Assembly (NCBI RefSeq): GCF_003612555.1
Contig: NZ_RAZF01000019.1
Location: 1-51,194 of the forward strand
Direction of reading: 5' to 3'
DNA: 51,194 nt
Origin: Acutalibacter sp. 1XD8-33
GTDB taxonomy: Bacteria > Bacillota > Clostridia > Oscillospirales > Acutalibacteraceae
A program made the translations under genes and the position numbers. The number at the start of each line of letters is the position of its first letter. The first letter of the stretch is position 1. Shown piece after piece: positions 1 through 17,088 of the stretch. Under the pieces are notes generated by a model. It ran no database searches. It had not been told where the DNA came from and worked only from the letters and a program-made list of their open reading frames with translations.

Positions 1-290
1 GGAGCGTTCTGACCTGACCGAGTCGGCAGACGAGACCAGCTGAGACTCAACGCCCTCAAGGTCTTGCCCTTGACCTTAACACCTGAGAAGCGCATTTTTG
101 CCAGGGGTGAATTTGCGCAGAATGCGCAAAGAGGGGACGCTTTTTGCAAGAGAAAAAGCGTCCCCTGGAAACCGGAACCTGCCGGCGGCGGGCAGCTTGG
201 ACAAAGCCAACTCGCCCGCCCGGACTGGGTGCCCCTCACCGCGCCGCCGGGCTTGCTTGCCCCCCTAATAAACTACACAAAAAGAGAGGA
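1..290 (+). repeat. Mosaic intergenic repeat, copy A (truncated by window start)
   Basis: This non-coding stretch precedes the ABC transporter gene. From about 50 to 175 it is nearly identical to 10800-10915 and is related to 13625-13720. It contains a 13-bp perfect hairpin (arms 133-145 and 153-165, loop GCAAGAG). In the third copy the lower stem has changed on both sides while the loop is nearly the same. Copies occur only between genes and on the same strand as the downstream gene. The start of the repeat is outside the window. No open frame here has a convincing ribosome site until 298. Confidence 0.8.
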
Positions 291-297
291 AAGGTAC

Positions 298-2091
298 ATG
301 GAGGAAAATCAGAAGAGGCGGCGGAAGGGCCTGGTGCGGCGCTTTCTGCCCTATTTCAGAAAATATCTGTGGGTGATGGTGTTCGACCTGTTCTGCGCGG
401 CGCTGACCACCCTGTGCGAGCTGACTCTGCCCCTGCTGGTGCGCTACGTCACTGACTTAGGCATCAATGACCTGGGGGCCTTGACCCTGGAGTTGGTGCT
501 GAAGATTGGCGCGCTCTATCTGTTTTTGTGCGCGGTGGACGCCGGGGCCACGTTCTTCCGGGCCTCCATCGGTCATATTATGGGAGCGAAAATGGAAACT
601 GACATGCGCACGGACCTGTTTGCCCATCTGCAAAAGCTTAGCTTCAACTATTTTGACAATATGAAGGTGGGGCAGATCATGTCCCGGATCACCTCGGACC
701 TGTTCGACGTGACGGAGTTCGCCCACCACTGCCCGGAGGAGATCTTCATGGCGGGCATCAAGATCATCGGGGCCTTTGCCATCCTCTGCGGGGTGAATGT
801 GCCCCTGACCCTGATCGTCTTTTCCATCGTGCCCTTCATGGTGCTGGCTGCAGCCTGGTTCAATATGAAAATGCGCAGCCAGTTCCGGCAGCAGCGGGCC
901 CAGATCGGTGAGATCAACGCCCAGGTGGAGGACAGTCTTTTGGGCGTGCGGGTGGTAAAATCCTTTGCCAACGAGGACGTGGAGACAGAGAAATTTGAGG
1001 CCGGAAACCGGAAATTCTTTCATATTAAGCGGGGCCGATACTATTTGATGGGCGGCTTTGAGGCCACCAACCGCCTGTTTGACGGACTGATGCACTTTCT
1101 GGTGCTGCTGGTGGGGGCCATCTTCATGATAAACGGCAAGGTGAATCCTGCGGACCTGGTGGCGTATATGCTCTATGTGGGCACCCTGATCACTTCCATC
1201 CGGCAGCTGGTGCAGTTCGCGGAGCAGTTCCAGCAGGGCATGACCGGCATTGAGCGCTTCTTCCAAATTATGGACGCGGACGTGGAGATTTTCGATGAGC
1301 CCGGGGCGAAGCCCCTGCGGGTGAAGGCCGGCGGGGTGCATTTCGAGCATGTGGGATTCAGCTATGCCGACGATGGGAAACAGGTGCTTTCCGAGATCAA
1401 CTTAGACGTGAAGCCCGGCCAGAATATCGCCCTGGTGGGCCCCTCCGGCAGCGGCAAGACCACCCTGTGCAACCTGATCCCCCGGTTTTACGACGTGACC
1501 GAGGGAAGGATTCTCATCGACGGCCAGGATATCCGGGAAGTGACCCTGAAGTCCCTGCGGGAGCAGATTGGCTTTGTGCAGCAGGACGTATATCTGTTCT
1601 CCGGCACGGTGTTTGAGAATATTGAGTATGGCAGGCCGGGCGCCAGCCGGGAAGAGGTAGAGGCAGCGGCAAGGCAGGCCGGGGCGGACGGATTCATAAA
1701 CGGGCTGAGCCATGGCTATGATACTTATGTAGGCGAGCGGGGCGTGAAGCTCTCTGGCGGGCAGAAGCAGCGCATCAGCATCGCCCGGGCTTTCTTGAAG
1801 AATCCGCCTATTATGATTCTGGACGAAGCCACCAGCGCCCTGGACAACGAGAGCGAGAAGATCGTGCAGGAATCCCTGGAGAAGCTCTCAAAGGGCCGGA
1901 CCACATTTACCATTGCCCACAGGCTTTCCACTATCCAAAACGCTACGATGATTCTGGTGCTTACGGAAAAGGGTATCGAAGAAAAAGGGACCCACCAGGA
2001 ATTGATGGAGAGGGGGGGCGTATACTACCATTTGTATAGTACTTACAGCGGCGATCCGGAAGGCCGGAGAAAAGAGGGAAACAATGGATAA
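298..2091 (+). CDS. ABC transporter, fused permease and ATPase (MsbA/LmrA-type half-transporter)
   Basis: This is a 597-residue ABC exporter half-molecule that should dimerise in the membrane and export a hydrophobic compound, lipid or peptide; the substrate cannot be read from sequence. The N-terminal ~300 residues hold the hydrophobic six-helix type domain. The ATPase domain follows, with Walker A GPSGSGKTT near residue 381, signature LSGGQ near 485, Walker B IMILDEA near 505 and an AHRLST switch region. The start is the ATG after GAGAGGAAAGG; the open frame extends upstream only into repeat sequence. The gene overlaps murD by 8 bp, so the two are probably co-transcribed and translationally coupled. 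The family is certain, the substrate unknown. Confidence 0.93.
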   Translation: MEENQKRRRKGLVRRFLPYFRKYLWVMVFDLFCAALTTLCELTLPLLVRYVTDLGINDLGALTLELVLKIGALYLFLCAVDAGATFFRASIGHIMGAKMETDMRTDLFAHLQKLSFNYFDNMKVGQIMSRITSDLFDVTEFAHHCPEEIFMAGIKIIGAFAILCGVNVPLTLIVFSIVPFMVLAAAWFNMKMRSQFRQQRAQIGEINAQVEDSLLGVRVVKSFANEDVETEKFEAGNRKFFHIKRGRYYLMGGFEATNRLFDGLMHFLVLLVGAIFMINGKVNPADLVAYMLYVGTLITSIRQLVQFAEQFQQGMTGIERFFQIMDADVEIFDEPGAKPLRVKAGGVHFEHVGFSYADDGKQVLSEINLDVKPGQNIALVGPSGSGKTTLCNLIPRFYDVTEGRILIDGQDIREVTLKSLREQIGFVQQDVYLFSGTVFENIEYGRPGASREEVEAAARQAGADGFINGLSHGYDTYVGERGVKLSGGQKQRISIARAFLKNPPIMILDEATSALDNESEKIVQESLEKLSKGRTTFTIAHRLSTIQNATMILVLTEKGIEEKGTHQELMERGGVYYHLYSTYSGDPEGRRKEGNNG

Positions 2092-3457
2092 AGAGCGGTT
2101 TTTTCAGGAGGTTCGGGGCAGGCGGGTGGCGTTCTGCGGTGTGGGAAGAAGCCATATGCCGTTAATCGAACTGTTTCAGGACAGAGGAGCGGTTGTGTCT
2201 GTGCGGGACCGCCGGAATCTTTCGGAGCTGGGAGAAAACGGGGAAAAGCTCCGGGCTTTGGGCGTGGCGCTTCACCTGGGGGAGGACTATCTCCGGGACC
2301 TTTCCGAGGACGTCATCTTCCGCACGCCAGGGATGAAGTTTCACCTGCCGGAGCTGGAGGAAGCCCGAAAGCGGGGCCAGACTGTTACTAGCGAGATGGA
2401 GGTGTTCTTCCGGCTGTGTCCCTGCAAGATCTATGCCGTCACAGGCAGCGACGGCAAAACCACTACCACCACCATCCTCTCGGAGTTCTTGAAAGCCCAG
2501 GGGAAAACCGTGCATCTGGGGGGGAACATCGGCAAGCCCCTCTTGCCGGAGATTGACGGGATCCGCCCGGAGGATGTGGCAGTGGTGGAACTCTCCAGCT
2601 TCCAGCTGATCTCCATGGGCAGCGGCCCGGACGTGGCTGTGGTCACCAATCTGGCTCCCAACCATCTGGACGTGCACAAGGACATGGCGGAGTATGTGGA
2701 GGCCAAGAAGAATATTTTTCTGCATCAGGACGGCTTTTCCCGCACAGTGCTCAACGCCGACAACGAAATTACCGCCGGTTTCCAGGGAGAAGTCCGGGGA
2801 GACTGCTGGACCTTCAGCCGCAGGAAACGGCCGGCCAGGGGTGTTTTCTGCGACGGTCAGGCGGTGTATGTTAATGGGGAAAAGTTGCTGGCGGTGGACG
2901 AAATCAAGCTACCCGGTTGGCACAATGTGGAAAACTATATGGCCGCTATCGCCGCCGTCTGGGGGGACGTAGACCCAGAGAATATGCGGCGGGTGGCGGC
3001 GGAGTTTGGCGGTGTGGAACACCGGATGGAGTTCGTCCGGGAGCTGGACGGGGTAAAGTATTACAACGATTCCATTGCCAGCTCCCCCAGTCGGACCATT
3101 TCGGGAACGCTCTCCTTTTATAAAGAAAATCTGGTGCTCATCTGCGGCGGCTATGACAAGCACATCCCATACGACCCTCTGGGTCCGGCCATCTGCCAGA
3201 GGGTGAAAGCCCTGATTCTGATGGGGGATACGGGTCCCAAAATCCGCCGGGCGGTGGAAAACTGCGGGGAGTACCGGCCTGGAAAGCCGGAGATCCACGA
3301 GGCTCGGGACATGGCCCAGGCAGTGGAGCTGGCCAGAAGAGCGGCAGAGCCCGGAGATGTGGTGTCCCTTTCCCCGGCGTCGGCCTCCTTCGATCTGTAC
3401 CCGGGCTTCGAGGTCAGAGGACGGCACTTCAAGGAGATTGTGAACAGGCTGGAATAA
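2084..3457 (+). CDS. murD: UDP-N-acetylmuramoyl-L-alanine--D-glutamate ligase MurD
   Basis: MurD is the cytoplasmic Mur ligase that adds D-Glu to UDP-MurNAc-L-Ala, using ATP, in peptidoglycan precursor synthesis. The 457-residue length is normal. Visible motifs are an N-terminal Rossmann-like start (VAFCGVGRS), the ATP-binding loop TGSDGKTTTT around residue 120, the central VVELSSFQL and TNLAPNHLDVH segments typical of MurD, and a C-terminal domain with NDSIASSP and a GGYDK motif. The start ATG lies inside the end of the ABC gene and has an AGAGGGA site. It stands apart from a dcw cluster: no other mur or fts genes are adjacent, and rnr follows. Confidence 0.95.
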   Translation: MDKERFFQEVRGRRVAFCGVGRSHMPLIELFQDRGAVVSVRDRRNLSELGENGEKLRALGVALHLGEDYLRDLSEDVIFRTPGMKFHLPELEEARKRGQTVTSEMEVFFRLCPCKIYAVTGSDGKTTTTTILSEFLKAQGKTVHLGGNIGKPLLPEIDGIRPEDVAVVELSSFQLISMGSGPDVAVVTNLAPNHLDVHKDMAEYVEAKKNIFLHQDGFSRTVLNADNEITAGFQGEVRGDCWTFSRRKRPARGVFCDGQAVYVNGEKLLAVDEIKLPGWHNVENYMAAIAAVWGDVDPENMRRVAAEFGGVEHRMEFVRELDGVKYYNDSIASSPSRTISGTLSFYKENLVLICGGYDKHIPYDPLGPAICQRVKALILMGDTGPKIRRAVENCGEYRPGKPEIHEARDMAQAVELARRAAEPGDVVSLSPASASFDLYPGFEVRGRHFKEIVNRLE

Positions 3458-3510
3458 GAAGAGTACTGGCTCATGGAGCGCCACTATCAAAAAGGATAAT
3501 AAATAAAGAA

Positions 3511-5694
3511 ATGAGGAATATGATGAGAAACCACAAGTCAGCAGCGCCGGGCGGAAACAGCGTGGAAAGCTATACCCTGCCCTCTGCCGCCAACACTCCG
3601 GAGGAAATGCTCATCATCGCCGCGCTGAAACGCTGCGGCGGGGATGGCGTTCCCTCCAAGGCCCTGCACAGGGAATCGGGCGTGCGGGATAAAGACGCCT
3701 TTTACCAAGCCCTCCACAGCCTGGAGGAGAAGGCAGAGGTAAAAATTGACAAAGACCACTGGGTCAAGCTGGCCCCGCCTGCCAGAGAGGTGGAGGCGGA
3801 GCTGGTGTCTCTGTCCCAGAGGTTCGGCTTTGCCCGGCCTAAAATCGGCGAGGATATTTTTATTCCCGGCAGGGACCTGAACGGCGCTTTTGTGGGGGAT
3901 ACCGTTTTGCTCTATGACCTGCAAAAGCGGGACAGGGGCCCCAGCGGCAAGGTGAAGCGCATTTTAAAGCGGGGAGAGAAGAAGCTGACGGGCACCATGC
4001 GGGTGGACCCCTATGGAGCCCGGGTGACTCCCGACGGCCCGGTGCGCTACGACATGGAGGTCTCCCCCAATAAAACCGGCGGAGCCAAAGACGGTGATAA
4101 GGTACTCATAGAGCCCATCCAGGACGGCCGGGGAGACTGGAGCCAGGCTGCGGTGACCTTTGTGTTCGGCACGGGGGACCGGGCCCGGGTCTGCGCGGAC
4201 GCTATCATTGAGCGCTGCGGTATTCCCACAGAGTTTCCGGAAGAAGTGCTGGCCCAGGCGGAGAAGATCGCCGGGATGACCGTGACCCAGGCGGACATTG
4301 ACCAGCGTCTGGACCTGCGGGACGAGCCTATCTTTACCATAGACAGTGCCGACGCCAAGGACCTGGACGATGCGGTCTCCGCCATGAAAACCGTGGACGG
4401 CTACAGTCTGGGGGTGCACATCGCCGATGTGTCCCATTATGTGAAATACAATACCCCCATCGACCAGGAGGCCTTTCTCCGGGGCACCTCGGTGTATTTC
4501 GCGGACCGGGTGATCCCCATGCTGCCCGAGGCCCTGTCTAATGGGGTCTGCTCTCTGAACGCCGGAACCGAGAAGCTCACCTTCTCCGCCCTGATGGACT
4601 TCGACAGGGAAGGCAATATGATCGACTACCGCTTCGCCAAAACCGTTATCAACTCCAAGGTACGGGGAGTATACAGCGAGGTGAACGAGATCTTCCACGG
4701 CACGGCCAGCCAAGAGATTCTGGATAAGTACGCCCCGGTGCGGGAGAGCCTGGAGACCGCCAAGGAACTGGCGGATATCCTGGCCAAAAACGGTAAAGGC
4801 CGGGGTCAGATGGACCTCTCCAGCGACGAGACCAAGTTCATCCTGGACGAGGACGGAGTGTGCGTGGACATCCAGCCCCGGACCCAGGGGCTGGCAGAGG
4901 AGCTCATCGAGCAGCTGATGATCGCGGCCAATATCGCGGCGGCCAAAGCCTCTTTGGCGGCGGAGATCCCCTTCCTGTACCGAGTCCACGAAAAGCCCAC
5001 CCCGGACCGGGTGGTCGAGCTCTGCGACCTGCTGGACAGGCTGAGCGTTCCCTGCAAGGAGCTGAGCCGGGGTACGCCAACGGCCAAGGATTTTGCCGCC
5101 GTGTTGGAACGGGTGAAGGGCACCGGCAAGGAGGCGGTGGTGAACCAGCGGATCCTCCGCACCATGGACAAGGCCCGCTATGACCACCGGGAGCTGGGGC
5201 ATTTCGGCCTGGCACTGGGAGAGTACAGCCACTTCACTTCGCCCATCCGCCGGTATCCGGACACCTCCATCCACCGGATTCTCAGTGATCTGGTAAGAGG
5301 GGAGGACCGGGGAGCTATCCGGAAGCGCTATAAGGCGTTCGCGAAAGAGTCGGCGCTGGAGAGTTCTCAGAACGAAGTGCGGGCCGTCACCGGAGAGCGG
5401 GACGCGGAGGACTGCTACACCGCCGAGTATATGCGCCAGCACTTGGGGGAACATCATATCGGAGTAATCAACGGCGTGACCCCCAAGGGCGTGTTTGTAA
5501 AGCTCCCCAATAACGCCGAGGGCTTTGTGAGCCTGAGCGATTTTGAAGGCTGTGATTTTGAGTTTGACGGGGAGATCTGCCACCGGGATCTGCGGGGCGG
5601 CCGGACGCTGATGATGGGCCAGGAGCTGGGAATCATCATTGCGGCGGCGGACGTGGCCACCGGGCGCATCGATTTCGTGCCGGAGGAGGCATAG
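3511..5694 (+). CDS. rnr: Ribonuclease R (3'-5' exoribonuclease, RNB family)
   Basis: This is a processive hydrolytic 3'-5' exoribonuclease that degrades structured RNA. From the N-terminus it shows a winged-helix-like region (residues ~25-90), cold-shock domains, the RNB catalytic domain with the acidic motif DSADAKDLDDAV near residue 275, the YSHFTSPIRRYPD motif, and an S1 domain near the C-terminus (VINGVTPKGVFVKL). Length 727 is typical. The start is uncertain by a few codons: ATG 3511 sits 15 nt after AAAGGA, while ATG 3523 sits 5 nt after GAGGA. The usual partners secG and smpB are not adjacent. Confidence 0.94.
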   Translation: MRNMMRNHKSAAPGGNSVESYTLPSAANTPEEMLIIAALKRCGGDGVPSKALHRESGVRDKDAFYQALHSLEEKAEVKIDKDHWVKLAPPAREVEAELVSLSQRFGFARPKIGEDIFIPGRDLNGAFVGDTVLLYDLQKRDRGPSGKVKRILKRGEKKLTGTMRVDPYGARVTPDGPVRYDMEVSPNKTGGAKDGDKVLIEPIQDGRGDWSQAAVTFVFGTGDRARVCADAIIERCGIPTEFPEEVLAQAEKIAGMTVTQADIDQRLDLRDEPIFTIDSADAKDLDDAVSAMKTVDGYSLGVHIADVSHYVKYNTPIDQEAFLRGTSVYFADRVIPMLPEALSNGVCSLNAGTEKLTFSALMDFDREGNMIDYRFAKTVINSKVRGVYSEVNEIFHGTASQEILDKYAPVRESLETAKELADILAKNGKGRGQMDLSSDETKFILDEDGVCVDIQPRTQGLAEELIEQLMIAANIAAAKASLAAEIPFLYRVHEKPTPDRVVELCDLLDRLSVPCKELSRGTPTAKDFAAVLERVKGTGKEAVVNQRILRTMDKARYDHRELGHFGLALGEYSHFTSPIRRYPDTSIHRILSDLVRGEDRGAIRKRYKAFAKESALESSQNEVRAVTGERDAEDCYTAEYMRQHLGEHHIGVINGVTPKGVFVKLPNNAEGFVSLSDFEGCDFEFDGEICHRDLRGGRTLMMGQELGIIIAAADVATGRIDFVPEEA

Positions 5695-5868
5695 GAGGCT
5701 GCTTTCGCGCATAGTTTTGAAGTATTACGGAGTGGCCTCCGTCTGCATAGCGGCGCAGACTGCGGCAGGACCTTGAGGACTTTGCCCTCAAACTCCCACC
5801 ACTTTTGAAAAAGTGGACAAAACTTTTTCTGTTCCACCAGGCTAAAATTATCTTATACTTCAAACTCT
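5695..5868 (+). repeat. Mosaic intergenic repeat, copy B (short)
   Basis: The spacer between rnr and the bofA-like gene contains the recurring core 'CCACTTTTGAAAAAGTGG' followed by ACAAAACTTTTT at about 5798-5828. This core is a small hairpin also found in copies at 7331 and 13400. The hairpin stem differs from those copies by paired changes (CCACTTTT/AAAAGTGG against CCACCTTT/AAAGGTGG). No coding frame here has support. Confidence 0.65.
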
Positions 5869-8151: not shown

Positions 8152-8477
8152 AGAGTCTGTTTTATATCCGGCATTTCTCCGTTTTTAAAACAGACTCTAA
8201 GGCGGGGCCTAGAGACGGGTCCCGCTCTTTTTGGGAAATCCGGTTGAAACCTGCCAGCTTTCGTGCTATAAACGGCTTCGTATTGAAAAGGAAAAGGGGA
8301 GGTCCCTTGGAATTCCGCGTCCTGCAATACTTTTTTGGCCGTGGCCCGGGAGCAGAGCCCTACCAGCGCGCCGGAAACTCCCTGCCATATCATTTGGAAA
8401 AAGGTTTCGCTGCTTTCAAAGCCTGCGGAGAAATTCCCGGCTTGCTTGCAAGAGATGGTCTAACCTATGTGTGGCAT
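8152..8477 (+). other. Non-coding stretch with a 13-bp hairpin; possible 3' UTR or small RNA
   Basis: Three bases after the acetyltransferase stop is an inverted repeat AGAGTCTGTTTTA / TAAAACAGACTCT (8152-8164 and 8186-8198). About 280 bases without a supported gene follow, ending in the strong terminator at 8478. It lacks the mosaic-repeat modules seen in most other gaps. I tried to match it to 6S RNA, tmRNA, SRP RNA, RNase P RNA and a T-box and could not. The strong terminator shows that something is transcribed through here: either a long 3' UTR or an unrecognised RNA. Confidence 0.35.
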
Positions 8478-8512
8478 AAACCGCCTCCGGTATACGGGGG
8501 CGGTTTTCGTTA
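8478..8512 (+). terminator. Rho-independent terminator upstream of aspS
   Basis: A 12-bp stem AAACCGCCTCCG / CGGGGGCGGTTT (one G-U pair) with loop GTATA is followed by a T-rich tail. It separates the acetyltransferase transcript, or an RNA in 8150-8477, from the aspS promoter. Confidence 0.85.
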
Positions 8513-8615
8513 ACTATATTCTCCGCTGACGGTTTGGATAGAGGAGCGCTTTCCATCACATCTCTTTATGGAAACTTTTCGATTGCCGCCGCGCTGTCCT
8601 TCCCTTGGGATAAGG

Positions 8616-8644
8616 TTGACCTTCGCGCCCCAGTGTGCTATACT
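8616..8644 (+). promoter_or_regulatory. Sigma-A-type promoter of aspS
   Basis: TTGACC and TATACT are separated by exactly 17 bp. They lie about 37 bp before the aspS start codon. Confidence 0.8.
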
Positions 8645-8680
8645 TACTTTATATTGCGCTTTGATAGGAGAGTCGATACT

Positions 8681-10465
8681 ATGTTAACCCCCAGAACCCA
8701 TACCTGCGGCCAGCTCCGCCTTGCTGATGCCGGGAAAACTGTCACCCTTTGTGGCTGGCTGGAAAACCTCCGGGAAGTGGGCGGCGGCGTGGCCTTTCTG
8801 ATCCTGCGGGATTTCTTTGGCACCACCCAGGCCGTCCTGGAAACCCCCGAGCTTTTGGCTCAGATCAAGGCTCTTAATAAGGAGAGCACGATTGCCGTTA
8901 CCGGCGTTGTCCGGGAGCGTACCAACAAGAACCCCAAAATCCCCACCGGGGATATTGAAGTTGCTCCAACCGAAATTCAGGTTCTCAGCCGCTGCCAGCA
9001 CAACGAGCTGCCCTTTGAGATCAATTTCTCCCGGGATGCCGACGAAACCCAGCGCCTGCGCTACCGGTATCTGGACCTGCGCAACCCTGCCGTAAAGAAG
9101 AACATTGTCCTGCGCAGCCAGGTGGTTTCCGCCCTGCGCCGGGCCATGGAGGACCTGGGCTTCCCGGAGATCAACACCCCCATCCTCACCGCCTCCTCCC
9201 CCGAGGGCGCCCGGGACTATCTGGTTCCCTCCCGCAAGCATCCCGGCAAGTTTTACGCCCTGCCCCAGGCACCCCAGCAATTCAAGCAGCTGCTCATGGC
9301 CTCCGGCTTTGACAAATACTTCCAGATCGCCCCCTGCTTCCGGGACGAGGACGCCCGGGGCGACCGCTCCCCCGGGGAGTTCTACCAGATGGACATGGAG
9401 ATGGCCTTCGCCGGACAGGAGGAGGTCTTTGCCGTGTTGGAGCAGGTTCTGCCCCCCATCTTCGAGAAATTCGGCCTCTACAAGCGGATTTCCCAGGCCC
9501 CCTTCCGCCGGATCCCCTATCTCCAGGCCATGGAGGACTACGGCAGCGATAAGCCCGACCTGCGCATCGACCTGCTGATCCGGGACGTGACGGACCTGCT
9601 GGGCGGCTGCGGCTTCGGGCCTTTTGAGAACGCCGTGGTGAAAGCGGTGCCCGTCTCTGGGTGCACTCTCACCCGCAAGGCCATCGACAAGCTCTGCGCC
9701 GACGTGGAGGTCCAGACCGCCCAAAAGACCTACTGGTTCAAGGTGGACGAGAAGGGGGAGATCGCCGGGGGCATCGCCAAGTTCATCAACGCCGATCCAG
9801 CCCTGGCGGAGAAGGTGACCGCCGCTCTGGAGCTGGAGCCCAACTCCCTGGTGATGCTGGCCGCTGGGCCCAAGGCCGTGGCCCAGAAAACCGCCGGAGT
9901 GGCCCGGAAGCTCCTGGGCGCCGCCTGCCCCCAGCACATGGACGAGGAGCAGTACGCCTTCTGCTGGATTGTGGACTTCCCCATGTATGAGATCGGCGAG
10001 GAAAGCGGCAAGCTGGAGTTCGGCCACAACCCCTTCTCTATGCCCCATGGCGGCAAGGAGGCCCTGCTCAAGGCGGAGCGGGGGGAGATGGACCCCCTGG
10101 ACCTGCGGGCCCACCAGTATGATCTGGTGGTGAACGGCTACGAGACCGCCTCCGGCGCGGAGCGGAACTACGACCCCGAGGTGATGGTGAAGGCCTTCGA
10201 GCTGGTAGGCCTCACGGAGGAGGACGTGCGCAGCAAGTTCCCCGCCATGTACAACGCCTTCTGCTACGGCGCGCCGCCCCATGCGGGAGCCGCCCCCGGC
10301 GTGGACCGGATCATTATGCTGCTGGCCGGGGAGAGCTACATCCGGGAGGTCATCGCCTTCCCCATGAACCAGTCCGCCCAGGACGTGATGATGGGCGCTC
10401 CCAGCCCCGTCTCCCAGGCCCAACTGGACGAGCTACATATTGCGGTGACAAAAGAGGAGGACTAG
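8681..10465 (+). CDS. aspS: Aspartyl-tRNA synthetase
   Basis: This class II synthetase charges tRNA-Asp, or tRNA-Asp and tRNA-Asn if non-discriminating. The 594-residue bacterial-type protein has an N-terminal OB fold (VTLCGWLENLRE), class II motif 1 around FPEINTPILTAS, motif 2 FRDEDARGDRSPGEFYQMD, a bacterial GAD insertion domain, and motif 3 GAAPGVDRIIMLLAG near the C-terminus. The ATG follows TAGGAG and begins with the usual RTHTCGQL; an in-frame extension upstream crosses the promoter and is rejected. No hisS is adjacent. Confidence 0.96.
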   Translation: MLTPRTHTCGQLRLADAGKTVTLCGWLENLREVGGGVAFLILRDFFGTTQAVLETPELLAQIKALNKESTIAVTGVVRERTNKNPKIPTGDIEVAPTEIQVLSRCQHNELPFEINFSRDADETQRLRYRYLDLRNPAVKKNIVLRSQVVSALRRAMEDLGFPEINTPILTASSPEGARDYLVPSRKHPGKFYALPQAPQQFKQLLMASGFDKYFQIAPCFRDEDARGDRSPGEFYQMDMEMAFAGQEEVFAVLEQVLPPIFEKFGLYKRISQAPFRRIPYLQAMEDYGSDKPDLRIDLLIRDVTDLLGGCGFGPFENAVVKAVPVSGCTLTRKAIDKLCADVEVQTAQKTYWFKVDEKGEIAGGIAKFINADPALAEKVTAALELEPNSLVMLAAGPKAVAQKTAGVARKLLGAACPQHMDEEQYAFCWIVDFPMYEIGEESGKLEFGHNPFSMPHGGKEALLKAERGEMDPLDLRAHQYDLVVNGYETASGAERNYDPEVMVKAFELVGLTEEDVRSKFPAMYNAFCYGAPPHAGAAPGVDRIIMLLAGESYIREVIAFPMNQSAQDVMMGAPSPVSQAQLDELHIAVTKEED

Positions 10466-10481
10466 CCTCCCAAAACCCGGA

Positions 10482-10558
10482 AACCCCTAGAAATATCTGG
10501 ACGCCCGACCTTGCGGAGAGCTGGCACCGGCTCTCCGCCTTCCCTATATTTAGGGGTT
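10482..10558 (+). terminator. Nested hairpin after aspS
   Basis: The outer arms AACCCCTA...TAGGGGTT enclose a 9-bp perfect hairpin GCGGAGAGC / GCTCTCCGC (10513-10521 and 10530-10538). A short T/C-rich stretch follows, with no long T run. It probably ends the aspS message, although the form is unlike the simple terminators elsewhere in the window. Confidence 0.5.
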
Positions 10559-10595
10559 GTTCTCAAAAAGAAATTTTAAAATCCACAAGATGTAG

Positions 10596-10624
10596 TTGAC
10601 AACCGGTCCGGTTTGGCTTATAAT
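10596..10624 (+). promoter_or_regulatory. Consensus sigma-A promoter, ~450 bp upstream of nrdD
   Basis: A perfect TTGACA and a perfect TATAAT are separated by 17 bp. No gene starts until nrdD at 11075, so the transcript would carry a leader of about 440 nt containing repeat copy D. Confidence 0.85.
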
Positions 10625-10639
10625 AGAGTTAGCGGGGCC

Positions 10640-10990
10640 AGTCCTCTTAAGACCTTGGGGTGTTGCCCCAAACCCCACAAACTTTTACCCACTCCTCACT
10701 GCGTTCGTCGTGAACGTTTTATTATGTCTTGCCAAGCTAACCAGGGTAAAAGTTTCGCCGGCCTTTTCAAAGGCCGCAGGGAGTGGGACGGAGTCCCACG
10801 GTCTTGCCCTTGACCTTAAACACCTGAGAAGCGCATTTTTGCCAGGGGTGAATTTGCGCAGAATGCGCAAAGAGGGGACGCTTTTTGCAAGAGAAAAAGC
10901 GTCCCCTGGAAACCGGAGAAGGCCAGCGGCTTCGCACCTAGCCTCCGCCTTCTGCCTGCTTCGCGGGCCGAGAGCCAGCCCAACACGCTA
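10640..10990 (+). repeat. Mosaic intergenic repeat, copy D
   Basis: Parts in order: a 12-bp inverted repeat AAACTTTTACCC / GGGTAAAAGTTT (10679-10690 and 10744-10755) around a segment shared with copy E (ACTCCTCACTGCGTTCGTCG), a hairpin GTGGGAC-GGA-GTCCCAC (10783-10799), and the module shared with copy A, including its 13-bp hairpin (10874-10886 and 10894-10906). It lies between the nrdD promoter and nrdD, so it should be transcribed as leader RNA. The rest of the 609-bp gap holds the aspS hairpin, the promoter and ~80 bp where I see only an A/T-rich lead-in to the nrdD ribosome site. Confidence 0.85.
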
Positions 10991-11074
10991 TATCTGGGGC
11001 GCGTCTAAAAAAGTATACAACCCTGTCTTTTCGGTAAAATATATATCTTTCTGAGAGGAGCCGTTCGCAAACCC

Positions 11075-13372
11075 ATGCCAAAGAAAATCATCAAACGCAA
11101 TGGCGAGCAGGTGAAGTTTGACCCTGCCAAAATCCGGGGGGCCATCTTCAAGGCCAACGTCCGCATCGCCACGGAACGCTTCAGCGACGCCGACCTGGAT
11201 GCCCTTACCGCCCAGGTGGTGGCCGAGCTGGAGAAGATGAAAACCGTCCCCACCGTAGAGCAGACCCAGGATATTGTGGAGGAAAAGCTCATTGCCGCGG
11301 ACTACGCCAAAACCGCCAAGGCCTACATCCTCTACCGGGCCCAGCACCAGCGCCTGCGGGAGATGGACGACGAGCTGGTGAAAATCTATTCCGCCCTGAC
11401 CTTTGTCCCTGCGGAGGACGTGGACTTGAAGCGGGAGAACGCCAACATCAACGCCGACACCGCCATGGGCACCATGCTCAAGTACGGATCCGAGGGGGCC
11501 AAGAGCTTCTACGACAAGTACGTGATCCCGCCCCATCTTGCCAAGGCTGATGCGGACGGGGATATCCATATCCACGACAAGGACTTCTACACCCTCACCG
11601 AAACCTGCTGCCAGATCGACCTGATCCGCCTGTTCAAAAACGGCTTCTCCACGGGCCACGGCTACCTGCGGGAGCCCCAGGACATCCGCAGCTACGCCGC
11701 CCTGGCCTGCATCGCCATCCAGGCCAACCAGAACGAGATGCACGGCGGCCAGAGCGTGCCAAATTTCGACTATGCCATGGCCCAGGGCGTGGACAAGACG
11801 TATCACAAGGAATACTTCAAGGCTCTCACCCAGTTTTTGCAGCTGATGAAAGTGATGCCTCATGGGCAGGCTGAAGCCATGGTGAACGCTGCCCAGACGG
11901 CTCTGCACAGCAAAGTTACCATGAAGAATGTGGACAAGTACGGGGAGGCCTTTGCGGAATTCCTCCCCCGCCACCAGAAGGACAGCGGCTTTGAGGAGGT
12001 CACCTGGGAGGAGGCCAGCGACGCCGCCGCCTATGCCAAGGAAACCGCCTGGCGGGAGACGGACAAGGCCACCTATCAGGCTATGGAGGCCCTGGTGCAC
12101 AACCTGAACACCATGAATTCCCGGGCTGGAGCCCAGGTTCCCTTCTCCTCCCTGAACTACGGCACCGACGTGAGCGAGCAGGGCCGCATGGTGATCCGCA
12201 ACCTGCTGCTGGCCACCGAGGCCGGCCTGGGAGACGGGGAAACTCCCATCTTCCCGGTGCAGATCTTCAAGGTGAAGGAGGGGGTCAACTACAACGAGGG
12301 CGACCCCAACTACGACCTGTTCAAGCTGGCCATGCGGGTGTCCGCCAAGCGGCTCTTCCCCAATTTCAGCTTCATCGACGCGCCCTTCAACCTGCAATAC
12401 TACAAGGCCGGGGACTACGATACGGAGATCGCCTATATGGGCTGCCGCACCCGGGTGATGGGCAACGTCCACGACCGCACCCACGAGACCACCTGCGGCC
12501 GGGGCAACCTGAGTTTTACCTCGGTGAACCTGCCCCGCATCGGCATAGAGGCCAAGGGCGACGTGAAGAAATTCTATGAGATCCTGGACCAGCGGATAGA
12601 CCTGTGTGTGGAGCAGCTGCTCCACCGGTTCAAGATCCAGTGCAGCAAAAAGGCGTTCAACTACCCCTTCCTCATGGGCCAGGGGGTGTGGATCGACTCC
12701 GACAAGCTGGACCGGAACGACTCCGTGGCGGAGGTGCTGAAGCATGGGACCCTTTCCGTAGGCTTCATCGGGCTGGCGGAAACCCTGAAGGCCCTGACAG
12801 GCAAGCACCACGGGGAGAGCGAGGAGAGCTACCAGCTGGGCCTGGAGATCATCACCTACATGCGCAAGCGGATGGACGATCTCTCCGCCCAATACGGCCT
12901 GAACTTCACTCTGCTGGCTACTCCGGGAGAGGGGCTTTCCGGCACCTTCACCCGGCTGGACAAGAAGAAATTCGGCGTGATTGAGGGCGTCACGGACCGG
13001 GAATACTACACGAACTCCTTCCACGTGCCGGTCTACTACCCTATCAGCGCCTTTGAAAAGATCCAGAAGGAGGCTCCCTTCCACGCCCTGACCAACGCCG
13101 GGCACATCAGCTATGTGGAGCTGGACGGGGACGTGTGCAAAAACATCGAGGCCTTCGAGAGCATCATCCGCTGCATGAAGGAGTCCGGCGTGGGCTATGG
13201 CTCTGTGAACCACCCGGTGGATCGGGACCCGGTGTGCGGGTATAACGGCATCATCGACGACGTGTGCCCCCGCTGCGGGCGGCATTCCGGCGAGGGCGTG
13301 CCCCTGGAAAAGCTGGAGGAGCTGCGGAAGAAATACCACGATGTGCCCGACTATTCCAGCCTGATCAGCTAA
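11075..13372 (+). CDS. nrdD: Anaerobic (class III) ribonucleoside-triphosphate reductase, catalytic body without glycyl-radical tail
   Basis: NrdD reduces ribonucleotides to deoxyribonucleotides by radical chemistry in anaerobes. The 765-residue protein has an N-terminal ATP-cone (KIIKRNGEQVKFDPAKI), the ten-stranded-barrel body with HIHDKDFYTLTETCC, and a metal-site-like tail with Cys721 and CPRC (Cys731, Cys734). It ends 31 residues after Cys734 without the RxxGY glycyl-radical motif that class III enzymes need. That motif occurs instead in the next gene (13925-14119). The stop TAA is formed with the first bases of repeat copy E. The start ATG has GAGAGGAG 14 nt upstream. Activation would come from NrdG (14872). 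The split is visible; its function is inference. Confidence 0.92.
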   Translation: MPKKIIKRNGEQVKFDPAKIRGAIFKANVRIATERFSDADLDALTAQVVAELEKMKTVPTVEQTQDIVEEKLIAADYAKTAKAYILYRAQHQRLREMDDELVKIYSALTFVPAEDVDLKRENANINADTAMGTMLKYGSEGAKSFYDKYVIPPHLAKADADGDIHIHDKDFYTLTETCCQIDLIRLFKNGFSTGHGYLREPQDIRSYAALACIAIQANQNEMHGGQSVPNFDYAMAQGVDKTYHKEYFKALTQFLQLMKVMPHGQAEAMVNAAQTALHSKVTMKNVDKYGEAFAEFLPRHQKDSGFEEVTWEEASDAAAYAKETAWRETDKATYQAMEALVHNLNTMNSRAGAQVPFSSLNYGTDVSEQGRMVIRNLLLATEAGLGDGETPIFPVQIFKVKEGVNYNEGDPNYDLFKLAMRVSAKRLFPNFSFIDAPFNLQYYKAGDYDTEIAYMGCRTRVMGNVHDRTHETTCGRGNLSFTSVNLPRIGIEAKGDVKKFYEILDQRIDLCVEQLLHRFKIQCSKKAFNYPFLMGQGVWIDSDKLDRNDSVAEVLKHGTLSVGFIGLAETLKALTGKHHGESEESYQLGLEIITYMRKRMDDLSAQYGLNFTLLATPGEGLSGTFTRLDKKKFGVIEGVTDREYYTNSFHVPVYYPISAFEKIQKEAPFHALTNAGHISYVELDGDVCKNIEAFESIIRCMKESGVGYGSVNHPVDRDPVCGYNGIIDDVCPRCGRHSGEGVPLEKLEELRKKYHDVPDYSSLIS

Positions 13373-13880
13373 GGTCGTGAGGCTCTGCCTCACACTCCGC
13401 CACCTTTTGAAAAAGGTGGACGAAAACTTTACCCACTCCTCACTACGTTCGTCGTGAACATTTTGATGTTTTGACGAGCTAACCCAACAACCGTAAAATG
13501 TTTCGTAGACTTCGTGAAACGAAGTCTTACCTTTCTCAAAGGTTGCGGTGGTTTGGAGGGCGACAATCGCCAGTGGCGATTTCCCGTCGCCGACCGAAGC
13601 GGCAGCTGAGACTCAGCGCCTCCAAGGTCTTGCCCTGAAACACCTGAGAAACGCATTTTTTGAGGGTGAATTGGCGCGCAGCGCCAAGAGGGAACTTTTT
13701 ACAAGAGAAAAAAGTTCCCTAGTCCCGGAGTGTGTCAGCTCTGTGCGCCCAGCACCCAGCTTCGCAGAGTTTTCCGCAGGAAAACTCATGTCACACGGCG
13801 AAACTCAGCTATATCCTTTCGCCATTCTTCGCGCCGTGTGCCGCAATCAGCCAGCGTGCGCACTCACGCGCCTATATCAA
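13371..13880 (+). repeat. Mosaic intergenic repeat, copy E, between the two parts of NrdD
   Basis: The repeat begins with AAGGTCGTGAGG at 13371, the same opening as copy C at 7302, so its first two bases complete the nrdD stop codon. Parts: hairpin GTGAGGC-TCT-GCCTCAC (13377-13393), hairpin CCACCTTTT/AAAAGGTGG (13400-13418), the copy-D-like segment, CGCCAGTGGCG, a hairpin GGGAACTTTTT/AAAAAGTTCCC with loop near ACAAGAG (13690-13719), a hairpin GAGTTTTCC-GCA-GGAAAACTC (about 13767-13787), and a CACGGCG...CGCCGTG closing pair. No coding frame is supported. Confidence 0.88.
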
Positions 13881-13924
13881 AAACGATCAAAATAAATATA
13901 GTATTTATCCAAGGAGGAACTATT

Positions 13925-14119
13925 ATGTCTAACACATCCAAAAAAATCGCAAAAATCTCTGGAACCGATCACATTATGGTCGGCGAGGGACGGGATTTCG
14001 AGCGCATCCGCCGGATTACCGGCTACCTGGTGGGCACCATCGACCGCTGGAATAACGCCAAGCGCGCTGAGGAGCGGGACCGGGTAAAGCACTCCATGAC
14101 CCAGGAGTCCCGTCCATGA
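13925..14119 (+). CDS. Stand-alone glycyl-radical domain of anaerobic ribonucleotide reductase
   Basis: This 64-residue protein contains FERIRRITGYLVGT. It matches the C-terminal glycyl-radical segment of class III reductases, with the radical Gly predicted at residue 33 (R30-I-T-G-Y). The following DRWNNAKRAEERDRVKHS is also typical of the NrdD C-terminus. The upstream nrdD ends without this segment, so the peptide most likely completes the enzyme in trans, as the small protein GrcA (YfiD) does for pyruvate formate-lyase. It has its own start: AAGGAGG 9 nt before ATG. Its last four bases overlap the surE start (ATGA), which suggests coupling to surE and nrdG. Motif recognition is strong; the in-trans role is inferred. 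Confidence 0.88.
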   Translation: MSNTSKKIAKISGTDHIMVGEGRDFERIRRITGYLVGTIDRWNNAKRAEERDRVKHSMTQESRP

Positions 14120-14862
14120 ATATCCTGCTGGTAAACGACGACGGAATCAATTCCTCGGGCTTATGGGCGCTGGCTGGAGTTCTGGTGCGCAACCATGTAG
14201 TTACGGTGGTGGCTCCCGACCAAAACCGCAGCGCCATTGGCCATGGGATCACTCTGGGCACGCCCTTGTTTGCCCATCGGGCCGATTTTCCTCGGGGTGT
14301 GGAGGCTTGGTCCATTTCTGGTACCCCTGCCGACTGCACCCGCTTAGGCCTGCTGAATCTGGCTCCGGGACCGGTAGACCTGGTGATCTCCGGTCCCAAC
14401 AAAGGACGAAATCTGGGCTATGATTTACCCTATTCCGGCACAGTGGCCGCAGCTTTGGAGGCGGCGATGTTCGGCGTAAAGGCGATTGCCTTGTCTGCTC
14501 CCATCGGGGCGGACGACCAGCGCACCATTGAGAGCTTTGCCTGCATTTTTGCTCTGTTGGACCTGGAGAACGATTTTGACCAGGTGCTAAACATCAATAT
14601 TCCTGATCTGCCTATCCAGGAAATCAAAGGCCTGCGTTGGACGCCGTTGGGCTGCAACCGCTGGGAGGGCGCCTATCTGGAGCAGCCCTCTCCCAATGGG
14701 GAGTGCGTCCATGTGTTCCGGCCTCCCGCCCAGCCACCGGACTGGAACCCCGGCAAGGCGGACGATTGGAACAGTCTAAATGACGGCTACATCACCCTGA
14801 CTCCTCTGACGTTCCGGCAGGAGCAGACGATTGAGGGACGCAGGGAAATTCCCTGGCAGTAG
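14116..14862 (+). CDS. surE: 5'-nucleotidase SurE
   Basis: SurE is a metal-dependent phosphatase that dephosphorylates nucleoside monophosphates, with some activity on 3'-nucleotides and polyphosphate. The 248-residue length is normal. Metal-site residues are visible in LLVNDDG at the N-terminus, the Ser in NRSAIGHGITL, and Asn in SGPNKGRNLG near residue 95. It overlaps the glycyl-radical gene by 4 bp and is 9 nt from nrdG. It therefore sits inside the deoxynucleotide-synthesis operon, where a nucleotide phosphatase could adjust precursor pools (inference). Confidence 0.92.
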   Translation: MNILLVNDDGINSSGLWALAGVLVRNHVVTVVAPDQNRSAIGHGITLGTPLFAHRADFPRGVEAWSISGTPADCTRLGLLNLAPGPVDLVISGPNKGRNLGYDLPYSGTVAAALEAAMFGVKAIALSAPIGADDQRTIESFACIFALLDLENDFDQVLNINIPDLPIQEIKGLRWTPLGCNRWEGAYLEQPSPNGECVHVFRPPAQPPDWNPGKADDWNSLNDGYITLTPLTFRQEQTIEGRREIPWQ

Positions 14863-14871
14863 GAGGGAGAA

Positions 14872-15369
14872 ATGGATTTAAATATTGCGGGGATCGTGGA
14901 GGAATCCATTGTGGACGGTCCAGGGATCCGGTATGTTGTTTTTACTCAGGGATGCCCCCACCATTGCCCCGGCTGCCATAATCCGGAGACGCATTCCTTC
15001 TCTGGCGGTCATTTTATATCTGTGGAGGACATTTTCACGCAATTCCAACAGGATGCCTTACTGAAGGGGATCACCTTTAGTGGCGGCGAGCCCTTCTGCC
15101 AGCCGGAGCCATTGGTGGAGCTGGCAAAGCTCGTACATGGCATGGGCAAGGACGTGGCGGTCTTTACCGGCTATACCTATGAGGAACTGATCAAAATGGA
15201 GGACCCCGCTATTCGCGTACTTCTGGATGAGACAGATTTACTCATCGACGGGCCCTATCTAGAGGACCTGCGGAATCTGGAACTGCGCTTTCGGGGCAGC
15301 GAGAACCAGCGTCTCATTGACATGAACGCTACCCGTACCGCGAGAAGCGTAATGTTGTGGGAAAACTGA
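14872..15369 (+). CDS. nrdG: Anaerobic ribonucleotide reductase activating protein NrdG
   Basis: This radical-SAM activase abstracts hydrogen from the NrdD glycine. The cluster motif is CPHHCPGC with Cys28, Cys32 and Cys35 (CxxxCxxC). The later FSGGEPFCQPE segment is the SAM-binding GGE motif. At 165 residues it is of normal size. The start follows AGGAGGG. It lies downstream of surE in the same run of genes as the split NrdD. Its natural target here should be the separate 64-residue peptide, alone or docked on the catalytic body. Confidence 0.93.
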   Translation: MDLNIAGIVEESIVDGPGIRYVVFTQGCPHHCPGCHNPETHSFSGGHFISVEDIFTQFQQDALLKGITFSGGEPFCQPEPLVELAKLVHGMGKDVAVFTGYTYEELIKMEDPAIRVLLDETDLLIDGPYLEDLRNLELRFRGSENQRLIDMNATRTARSVMLWEN

Positions 15370-15372
15370 TCT

Positions 15373-15483
15373 CCGCTTCTTGCTGAATTTCGCGTTGCGA
15401 AATTCTTGTGAAAACAGCCAGGGGTTTTCTCTGGCTGTTTTCCATTGCAAGGTTTGCCTAGGGCAAACCTTGGCAAGAAGCGG
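15373..15483. repeat. Palindromic element with four perfect stems (cloverleaf-like)
   Basis: An 11-bp outer inverted repeat CCGCTTCTTGC / GCAAGAAGCGG (15373-15383 and 15473-15483) encloses three perfect hairpins. They are 9 bp GAATTTCGC/GCGAAATTC (15385-15405), 12 bp GAAAACAGCCAG/CTGGCTGTTTTC (15410-15442) and 11 bp CAAGGTTTGCC/GGCAAACCTTG (15448-15472). It begins 3 bp after the nrdG stop and has no T-run. The architecture resembles the element at 34237-34488, although the sequence differs. It could be a MITE-like mobile element or a structured RNA. Confidence 0.75.
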
Positions 15484-15768
15484 GTCGGATAAAACGCAAA
15501 ACGCAAAGACGAGGAGCCGGTTTTCCAGCCGCCCCTTTCCTTTTTTGGCGTGGCGGCATAAAGGTTCGCGTGCGCCTTTAGCGGTGCCGGCAGTATAGGA
15601 GAAACCAGCTCAAGTTACATGGGCATATCCTTTGCCAAGTGACAGACTTCCTCCACAGCCACCGCTCCATTCTCCTAGGACGTATCAGCCGACATATCAG
15701 TGCTCCGCCAAAAACCAAAGCGAATAAATTCATCGGGCCTAGCCACCCTAATGGAACGAGGTGATAGC
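15484..15768. other. Intergenic, nothing recognised
   Basis: This is the remainder of the gap before the oxidoreductase. I see no gene, no convincing promoter and none of the mosaic-repeat modules. Confidence 0.4.
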
Positions 15769-17088
15769 ATGAATTCGGTTTGGACAAAAGATATGGATCT
15801 GCCCCGGTTTCAGCCGCTGAAAGGGGATTTGCGCACGGATGTGTTGATCATCGGCGGAGGAATGGCGGGAATTTTGTGCGCCTATCAGCTGGCGAGGGAG
15901 GGCGTTGATTACGCGCTGGTAGAGGCTCGCTTCATCGGCGAGGGCATTACCAAGAACACCACCGCAAAGATTACGTCTCAGCATGGACTCATCTATGATA
16001 GATTGATCAAAAGGTTTGGTCTGGAGACAGCCCGGCTGTATTTACAGGCAAATCAGGCGGCGCTGGATAAATATAGAGAGCTCAGTCAGGACATGGATTG
16101 TGATTTTGAGGAAAAGGATGCCCTCGTATATTCTTTGGACGGCGCGGAGAAACTCCAACGGGAGGCAGCGGCGCTGGAGCGCTTAGGCTCTGCCGCCTCC
16201 TTCCAGCCGGAATTGCCGCTGCCCTTTCCTGTGGCGGGGGCGGTGTGGCTTCCCCACCAGGCGCAGTTCCACCCCCTTAAGTTTTTGCGGGGAATCGCCC
16301 GGGGCCTGCGGATCTATGAGCATACCAAGGTGCTGGAGCTGATGCCCGGGAAGGCTGTGACGACTGGGGGAATGGTGAGAGCGGATAAAATCATTATTGC
16401 CACGCATTTCCCCATTTTAAACAAGCATGGCAGCTATTTCCTCAAGCTGTACCAGCAGCGCTCCTATGTGTTGGCCCTGAAAGGCGCGCCGGACGTAGGC
16501 GGCATGTATGTGGACGAGAGGACGCCGGGGCTGAGCTTTCGCAATTACAACGGCTTACTGCTGCTGGGCGGTGGTAGCCACCGCACTGGGAAGCCCGGCG
16601 GCTGGAAGGACCTGGAGGCCTTTGCCCAACGCTTTTATCCAGGGGCAAAAATCGCCGCCCGCTGGGCCACCCAGGACTGCATAACTCTGGACGGTATGCC
16701 TTATATCGGCCAATACGCCAAAAGCACGCCGGAGCTTTTTGTGGCCACTGGATTCAATAAATGGGGAATGACCTCTTCTATGGCAGCCGCCATGTTGCTG
16801 ACGGATTTAATTTTGGGCCGGGAAAACAAGTATGCCCGCGTGTTCCGGCCATCCCGGAGCATCCTGCGGCCGCAGCTGGCGGCCAACGCTACAGAGGCCG
16901 TCGCCGGGCTGCTGACGCCTACTGTTCCCCGATGCCCTCATATGGGCTGTGCCCTAAAATATAATGCCGCCGAGCATAGCTGGGATTGCCCCTGCCATGG
17001 CTCCCGGTTCCAAGAGGATGGGAGTCTCATTGACAACCCTGCCACGGACGACAAAAAGGAAATGGGTAGGGCACGCGGCGGAGCATAA
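15769..17088 (+). CDS. FAD-dependent oxidoreductase with C-terminal Rieske [2Fe-2S] domain (YhfW-like)
   Basis: This 439-residue protein is a two-domain flavoprotein. The N-terminal dinucleotide fold is VLIIGGGMAGILCAYQLA (near residue 27) with the DAO-type substrate domain behind it. The C-terminal ~60 residues are a Rieske domain with CPHMGC and CPCHGS, giving the two Cys-His pairs that hold a 2Fe-2S cluster. The arrangement matches Bacillus YhfW and relatives, whose substrate is not established to my knowledge. The ATG after AACGAGGTG is used; the frame upstream has no ribosome site. A terminator follows at 17103. Confidence 0.88.
   Translation: MNSVWTKDMDLPRFQPLKGDLRTDVLIIGGGMAGILCAYQLAREGVDYALVEARFIGEGITKNTTAKITSQHGLIYDRLIKRFGLETARLYLQANQAALDKYRELSQDMDCDFEEKDALVYSLDGAEKLQREAAALERLGSAASFQPELPLPFPVAGAVWLPHQAQFHPLKFLRGIARGLRIYEHTKVLELMPGKAVTTGGMVRADKIIIATHFPILNKHGSYFLKLYQQRSYVLALKGAPDVGGMYVDERTPGLSFRNYNGLLLLGGGSHRTGKPGGWKDLEAFAQRFYPGAKIAARWATQDCITLDGMPYIGQYAKSTPELFVATGFNKWGMTSSMAAAMLLTDLILGRENKYARVFRPSRSILRPQLAANATEAVAGLLTPTVPRCPHMGCALKYNAAEHSWDCPCHGSRFQEDGSLIDNPATDDKKEMGRARGGA

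Follow-up and report, generated by a model that had tools for sequence, protein, structure and literature searches.

Class III ribonucleotide reductases (RNRs), as known from the NrdD proteins of P. copri (structure 8p23) and phage T4 (1h7a), have an ATP cone, a barrel and a radical cysteine in an MGCR motif, with the activase gene nrdG nearby. Here we describe an nrdD locus of Acutalibacter sp. 1XD8-33 (contig NZ_RAZF01000019.1 of assembly GCF_003612555.1; the window analyzed is the whole stretch of 51,194 nucleotides, forward strand) which shares these features, with a barrel of 10 strands, but in which the glycyl-radical loop is found on a separate gene product and an aspartate, Asp718, stands in for one zinc cysteine. 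We consider it very probable that the locus encodes a class III RNR made of two polypeptides, in which the glycyl radical is carried by a small separate subunit whose loop is inserted in the large one, hereafter the body.

Papers are cited by PMC number, for those parts of them that were available to us. YfiD/GrcA of E. coli and Y06I of phage T4 repair pyruvate formate-lyase (PFL) that has been cleaved by O2, and they are the sole validated spare parts, though others may exist (PMC8683613). Like them, the peptide described here is a small autonomous glycyl-radical protein that is also borne by phages, but it matches the NRDD family rather than the PFL family Gly_radical, and there is no intact enzyme in the genome for it to repair. 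In the other glycyl-radical enzymes (GREs) in the literature seen, the radical glycine belongs to the chain that does the catalysis, with repaired PFL (by YfiD or Y06I) as the exception. The enzyme described here, which should be essential, appears to have its radical glycine normally on a second chain, of 7 kDa. An RNR chain is also divided over two genes in NrdJa/NrdJb of Pseudomonas aeruginosa (PMC9669993, PMC4520616), but that enzyme is class II and B12-dependent, and it is C-terminal domains that are split off, not a radical-bearing segment. The nrdA gene of Aeromonas phage Aeh1 is in pieces and its enzyme is functional (PMC3653736, PMC2988022), but there, as in phage nrdD genes broken by introns or inteins, homing elements are the cause and the arrangement is phage-specific, whereas the split at the radical loop is conserved in bacteria. 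Our literature search turned up no description of a class III RNR in which such a split is conserved and the radical has a subunit of its own; as most subscription papers lay outside the search, this is weak evidence of novelty. The chemistry is that of known class III RNRs, and the subunit architecture is apparently new.

One NrdD encoded by two genes

An earlier note on this DNA, made from the letters alone, had described a 765-residue NrdD that lacks the RxxGY end, followed by a 64-residue protein with the missing radical site and its own AAGGAGG. Both parts of that description are borne out (Table 1). The open reading frame (ORF) of the body stops short of the glycyl-radical loop, and the peptide has the sequence RIRRITGYLVGT, with the radical-site glycine at position 33. 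Against Pfam NRDD (PF13597, cut-off 26.2 bits) the body covers positions 1-531 of 562 with 632.2 bits, and the peptide covers the remaining 531-562 with 33.2 bits. Against NCBIfam PRK07111 the body reaches position 711 of 746 with 1060.9 bits (cut-off 764), and the peptide covers 709-744 with 47.2 bits, far below this full-length cut-off; the body also passes the cut-off of TIGR02487. The peptide matches only PF13597 at E <=0.001, and no PFL-type Gly_radical family.

Alignment with a known NrdD gives the same picture, since in phmmer alignments P. copri NrdD (8p23) is tiled by the body to residue 706 and by the peptide from 707. The radical residue of the P. copri enzyme is Gly711, in a domain (676-739) that holds a zinc site and then the buried glycine loop, and whose order depends on the nucleotide, being ordered with ATP but disordered with dATP (PMC11226230). 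Given the order of zinc site and loop, the split point lies inside this domain, between the two. Judged from P. copri, mobility of the radical domain appears to be natural in NrdD.

The glycyl-radical motif is absent from the body chain, which ends at position 531 of the NRDD profile and leaves the motif to the separate peptide. The candidate thiyl cysteine of the body, Cys457 in MGCR, aligns with the MGCR of both P. copri and T4 NrdD; in the T4 enzyme this cysteine is Cys290. The four-cysteine zinc site is incomplete in the body, as Asp718 replaces the first cysteine and Cys721, Cys731 and Cys734 are retained; an aspartate at this position is also common in fused relatives, where body and radical loop form one chain. 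With a loose pattern, 50 of 63 truncated-body ORFs show an EKLxELRKK-like motif behind the zinc loop, as against none of 27 fused ORFs, five of which are near-identical viral copies; a narrower first pattern found it in 39 of the 63 truncated bodies. This C-terminal motif of split bodies may hold the peptide, or it may be the remnant of a former linker.

Table 1. Features of the split nrdD locus, with positions in the window.
Feature	Position	Strand	Remarks
nrdD body	11075-13372	+	765 aa; ATP cone, 10-stranded barrel and zinc-type loop; Pfam ATP-cone 4-92, NRDD 121-738 (profile 1-531 of 562)
Cys457 codon, MGCR motif, position of the radical (thiyl) cysteine	12443-12445	+	same motif at this place in the P. 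copri and T4 enzymes (alignment)
EKLEELRKK in C-terminal extension of body; split-body motif, candidate docking element	13307-13333	+	loose-motif count
Spacer between body and peptide, 552 bp	13373-13924	.	dispersed repeat family at 13395-13730
Shine-Dalgarno sequence AAGGAGG of peptide gene	13911-13917	+	
nrdD radical peptide, stand-alone glycyl-radical segment, 64 aa	13925-14119	+	Pfam, NCBIfam, P. copri alignment
Gly33 codon, counterpart of P. copri NrdD radical Gly711	14021-14023	+	alignment; PMC11226230
surE	14116-14862	+	shares 4 bases with the stop-codon end of the peptide gene; Pfam/NCBIfam
nrdG, radical-SAM activase	14872-15369	+	TIGR02491 143.6 bits, cut-off 126.1

The identities of surE and of NrdG behind it, which the earlier note had read from the sequence, agree with both Pfam and NCBIfam.

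Spread of the split among bacteria

We searched PF13597 in 118 relatives, including 28 genomes of the same genus. A truncated body, with profile end at 530 or 531, occurs in the Acutalibacter sp. 1XD8-33 genome itself and in 27 of the 28 (two of these, G003 and G015, as contig-edge fragments); the sole same-genus genome without a match, G024, is 60% complete. Outside the genus, bodies reaching 531-532 were present, among the matches listed, in G034, G039, G059, G064, G074, G083, G087, G098, G105 and G116, with a fragment in G067. In a scan of named genomes, 330 loci were found and 80 kept; 57 of the 80 have a truncated body plus a stand-alone peptide, 13 have a peptide with no body in the locus, and 10 are fused. 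The split loci include those of Acutalibacter, Neglectibacter, Anaeromassilibacillus, Neobittarella and Schwartzia, and the fused ones those of Caproiciproducens and Acetanaerobacterium. The suggestion that the split might be a lineage trait is thus upheld by the search among relatives.

Across the phylum, 94 of 109 genomes had a PF13597 match at E <=0.001, and bodies that end at 531-540 were found, besides the one studied here, in G183, G206, G226, G242 and G254. The gene order in G183 and G226 is nrdR, body, a 102-aa peptide with RRVTGYF, and nrdG; these peptides (L167:2671-2976 and L168:2630-2935) were missed by the Pfam profile and were found by reading the ORFs. In three Selenomonas genomes (G166, G167, G170) the truncated body is on one contig and the peptide with nrdG on another, and PF02867, the large subunit of class I/II RNRs, is absent. 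These unlinked loci would count for action of the peptide in trans. G173 has a similar layout, yet PF02867 is present.

The radical core of the peptide is under strong purifying selection. Among 19 peptides compared pairwise, with the prophage copy described below included, the pooled proportions of synonymous (pS) and nonsynonymous (pN) differences were 0.55 and 0.18 for the whole gene, and 0.48 versus 0.035 for the core.

Ribonucleotide reductases of the genome

Our PF13597 search of the Acutalibacter sp. 1XD8-33 genome (99.98% complete, 0.23% contamination) returned this body, this peptide and one further stand-alone peptide, encoded on another contig. A second intact nrdD, which the earlier note had set against the idea of a split enzyme, was not found by this profile in the draft. 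PF02867 was detected in none of the 11 same-genus genomes tested, this one included, though 6 of the 25 genomes covered by the search have it, and TIGR02505 was detected in none of 12 genomes tested. Intact NrdD is missing in 9 of the 11 same-genus genomes (that is, here and in 8 of the 10 others; G001 and G008 are the exceptions), and in those 9 no RNR other than the split one was detected. The only NrdG above the TIGR02491 cut-off in the genome is the one at this locus. With no intact nrdD and no class I/II RNR detected, body and peptide together should be the only de novo route to deoxyribonucleoside triphosphates (dNTPs) in this gut anaerobe, and hence should be essential.

The alternative that survives best, although we think it improbable, is that the peptide is mainly a GrcA-like spare part for repair, and that the body turns over with its own residual end or some other radical source. 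Stand-alone peptides are indeed found beside intact NrdD in G210, G225, G249, G282, G169 and G172 (that of G210 below the Pfam cut-off), and in viruses the peptide is often alone (25 of the 33 records described below); PMC8683613 allows for spare parts of GREs beyond the validated YfiD and Y06I. In G282 (L173:6243-6503, - strand) and G249 (L176:4666-4923, - strand) the chromosomal peptide gene adjoins a G5/3D-domain gene; this shared neighborhood, in genomes that also encode an intact NrdD, looks like a GrcA-like layout for NrdD. Against a repair role at the locus studied here are the same-genus genomes that have no intact NrdD, and the fact that every truncated ORF among those listed ends before the motif. 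Where no intact NrdD exists the peptide must be constitutive, and as this genome has no intact enzyme to repair, its peptide is probably a constitutive subunit rather than a GrcA-type repair part.

Joining of the parts and decay of the gene

It is very unlikely, in our view, that the two parts become one chain at the level of RNA or protein, by an intron, an intein, readthrough or frameshifting. Phage nrdD genes are often split by introns or inteins (PMC3653736, PMC12363816, PMC2988022), and the nrdD of phage EL753P1 has an intein-like insert at the radical cysteine. However, the gaps between body and peptide range down to 10 bp (10-799 bp, median 66.5, n=58), and the frame of the peptide relative to the body is not fixed (16/24/25 over 65 pairs, which include 6 viral rows, in some of which the order is peptide, then body). 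No Rfam family scored over its cut-off in window positions 8400-16000, and there was no group I or II intron match between the parts. The body has its own stop and the peptide its own start with a Shine-Dalgarno sequence, and the unlinked Selenomonas loci also speak against joining, as do the 765 residues of the body, which align along NrdD end to end, although no dedicated intein search was made. The frames, the gaps, Rfam and the breadth of the survey led us to reject readthrough, frameshift, intron and assembly error.

That nrdD is decaying here, or that faulty sequencing or assembly has produced a false split, is hardly credible: a dispersed repeat in the gap could hint at an insertion that broke the gene, but relatives are split alike over the whole range of gaps, with random frames and purifying selection, and no other RNR was detected in the genome.

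The repeat (13395-13730) is non-coding and dispersed, with at least 73 matches in the same genome (40 of 344 candidates were scored). Its insertion was rejected as the cause of the split because relatives with short gaps share the same split. Related repeat pieces are also found 5' of nrdD, at window positions 10679-10905.

Proposed mechanism and structural model

In the two-polypeptide enzyme that we favor, the 765-aa body would fold as NrdD with an open radical pocket, and NrdG would place the glycyl radical on Gly33 of the peptide, either free or in complex. The glycine loop would then enter the pocket beside Cys457, which would take over the radical and attack the substrate. From the sequences we infer expression and binding of the two parts, generation of the radical on the peptide, whether free or bound, catalysis, and activity of the peptide in trans. 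As the peptide is separate, a segment cleaved by O2 could be replaced with no need to synthesize another 85-kDa body, and the same part could come from phages or from other loci. The earlier proposal that the radical subunit could be replaced after oxygen damage becomes a sharper hypothesis now that peptides of this kind are known to stand alone in phages, and also in genomes whose nrdD is intact.

This arrangement makes it testable whether spare parts exist for GREs besides PFL, a question from PMC8683613, and how NrdG gains access to a buried glycine, as its substrate would be the free peptide. It also suggests that functional subunits may be found among small ORFs labeled as hypothetical or as pieces of NrdD.

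The earlier note had proposed that the peptide docks into the large subunit. We built an AlphaFold2 model of a tethered chain, for which the locus was read through its stops as a single chain. The input alignment had 43 rows (this locus, 12 other split loci with in-frame peptide, and 30 bodies alone) and no fused relatives. Residues 99..1008 of the model superpose on 89..736 of P. copri 8p39_B (root-mean-square deviation 3.6 over 622) and 125..992 on 27..589 of T4 1h7a (2.9 over 545); 124..1009 superpose on 68..759 of PFL 1mzo, and the match to T. maritima 4u3e extends to 1009. By end-point offset, Gly983 of the model corresponds to P. copri Gly711 and to T4 residue 580, which is presumably the radical residue, Gly580. 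With P. copri chains that lack an ordered radical domain the alignment reaches only 712-713. The tethered model is consistent with docking of the peptide in the body, without being proof of it. The superposition on NrdD and PFL extends through the peptide, although the glycine loop itself is modeled with low confidence.

Several points weigh against the two-polypeptide enzyme. The mean predicted local distance difference test score (pLDDT) of the model is 70.8, its predicted template modeling score is 0.67, and the pLDDT is <50 over the glycine loop (model residues 980-992); the superposition ranges are first and last residues only; and AlphaFold2 may be recalling NrdD structures from its training. 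The absence of other RNR classes is based on profile searches of a draft genome, and the intact nrdD that this genome lacks is present in three of the same genus, G001, G008 and G019. A Shine-Dalgarno sequence of at least 4 nt stands at the peptide start in 70 of 71 cases, a count favored by our picking of starts for the best match.

Radical peptides in viruses and prophages

The second peptide of the Acutalibacter sp. 1XD8-33 genome (G000:C106, L004:5942-6091, + strand) has 50 residues if translation starts at that ATG which has the best ribosome site. It is located in a prophage, flanked by an antirepressor (Bro-N, KilAC) and by a large terminase with an SPP1-type portal. The same segment is found in a 40-kb viral record, L041, where six flanking proteins are 100% identical.

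A scan of viruses gave 52 loci. Fused NrdD was found in 7 (L050, L054-L057, L059, L062), and most of the remainder have a short ORF with the radical motif, with L083-L085 partial or disrupted. When 33 of these viral records were searched over their full length, 25 were found to encode the peptide only, 5 a peptide together with a truncated body (G127, G131, G138, G142, G144) and 3 an intact NrdD; these records may be fragments, and the match in G140 runs upstream across four stop codons. NrdG was found in none of nine peptide-only viral records tested. In a collection of named phages 14 records had a match, including the cultured Eggerthella phage EL753P1.

In EL753P1 (L178, OP172808.1) the annotated nrdD spans 688-3546. 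Its product has a long intein-like insert that starts at the radical-cysteine MGC, and it is truncated at the end in the manner of split bodies. The downstream peptide, at about 3911-4116, is spread over two frames and annotated as hypothetical. The body of L071 is interrupted in much the same way.

The peptides are of two types. The short ones, including the one in the window, have about 20 residues ahead of FERIRRITGYLVG. The longer ones, of about 83-101 aa, are found in Selenomonadaceae chromosomes and in phages and have an extra N-terminal domain of about 55-60 residues; when 26 of them were aligned, all of the 16 invariant columns were in the radical part. AlphaFold2 predicts a strand (6-11), a helix (18-32) and two strands (36-43, 49-55) for the N-terminal domain, with pLDDT about 80-87. 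Foldseek found no match to it that reaches E 0.001, the best being 0.018 in PDB and 0.081 in BFVD.

Origin of the split

In a tree of bodies made without the tail columns (95 rows, 60 split and 35 fused), the distribution of split and fused forms needs 9 changes, at least 5 of them on well-supported branches. This count is loose, because the tree warns of long branches meeting (L069, L133, L045, L117), because rows that were near-identical, too short or without NHPVD were left out (among them L024, L025, L031, L034, L071, L089, L099, L055-L057, L059 and L065), and because sampling followed similarity to a stand-alone peptide. The C-terminal motif in most split bodies argues either for fewer splits of the short-peptide kind than the tree gives, or for selection of the motif for docking.

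Genomes with both intact NrdD and a peptide, and phages with the peptide alone, suggest a route in which a spare part was gained and the original tail was then lost. Since the split is common in relatives and the small part occurs by itself in viruses, the part that bears the radical may be an exchangeable module. A broader reading, which we hold tentatively and at somewhat less than even chances, is that the NrdD radical peptides, which phages and some chromosomes have with no body, in the short form or with the N-terminal domain, make up a mobile kit, whether of spares or of hijackers, that supplies or restores the radical of a host NrdD, and that in several lineages the part took over, the tail was lost and the reductase became obligately two-subunit. 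The separate radical chain also suggests that phages can supply or seize host dNTP synthesis with a 50-residue peptide.

Other loci

Some loci differ in layout from those described above. In L169 a 680-aa truncated body (3701-5740, - strand) is accompanied by a gene that resembles radical-SAM activases and by a 45-aa peptide (2749-2883, - strand) of divergent sequence, which contains RVVGYL. In L113 one body is followed by two tandem radical peptides (3009-3167 and 3246-3404), and the Anaeromassilibacillus genome G157 has three stand-alone peptides. A Selenomonas ruminantium assembly has, besides the peptide next to nrdG, an extra one (L151:5842-6195) that adjoins a ParA-type gene and is perhaps plasmid- or phage-borne.

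Split nrdD was also found in assemblies labeled Burkholderiaceae or Anaerobiospirillum (L146, L154, L133). In the body tree L133 is a long, uncertain branch, and L146 and L154 group with Bacillota rows, which may reflect mislabeled bins or transfer.

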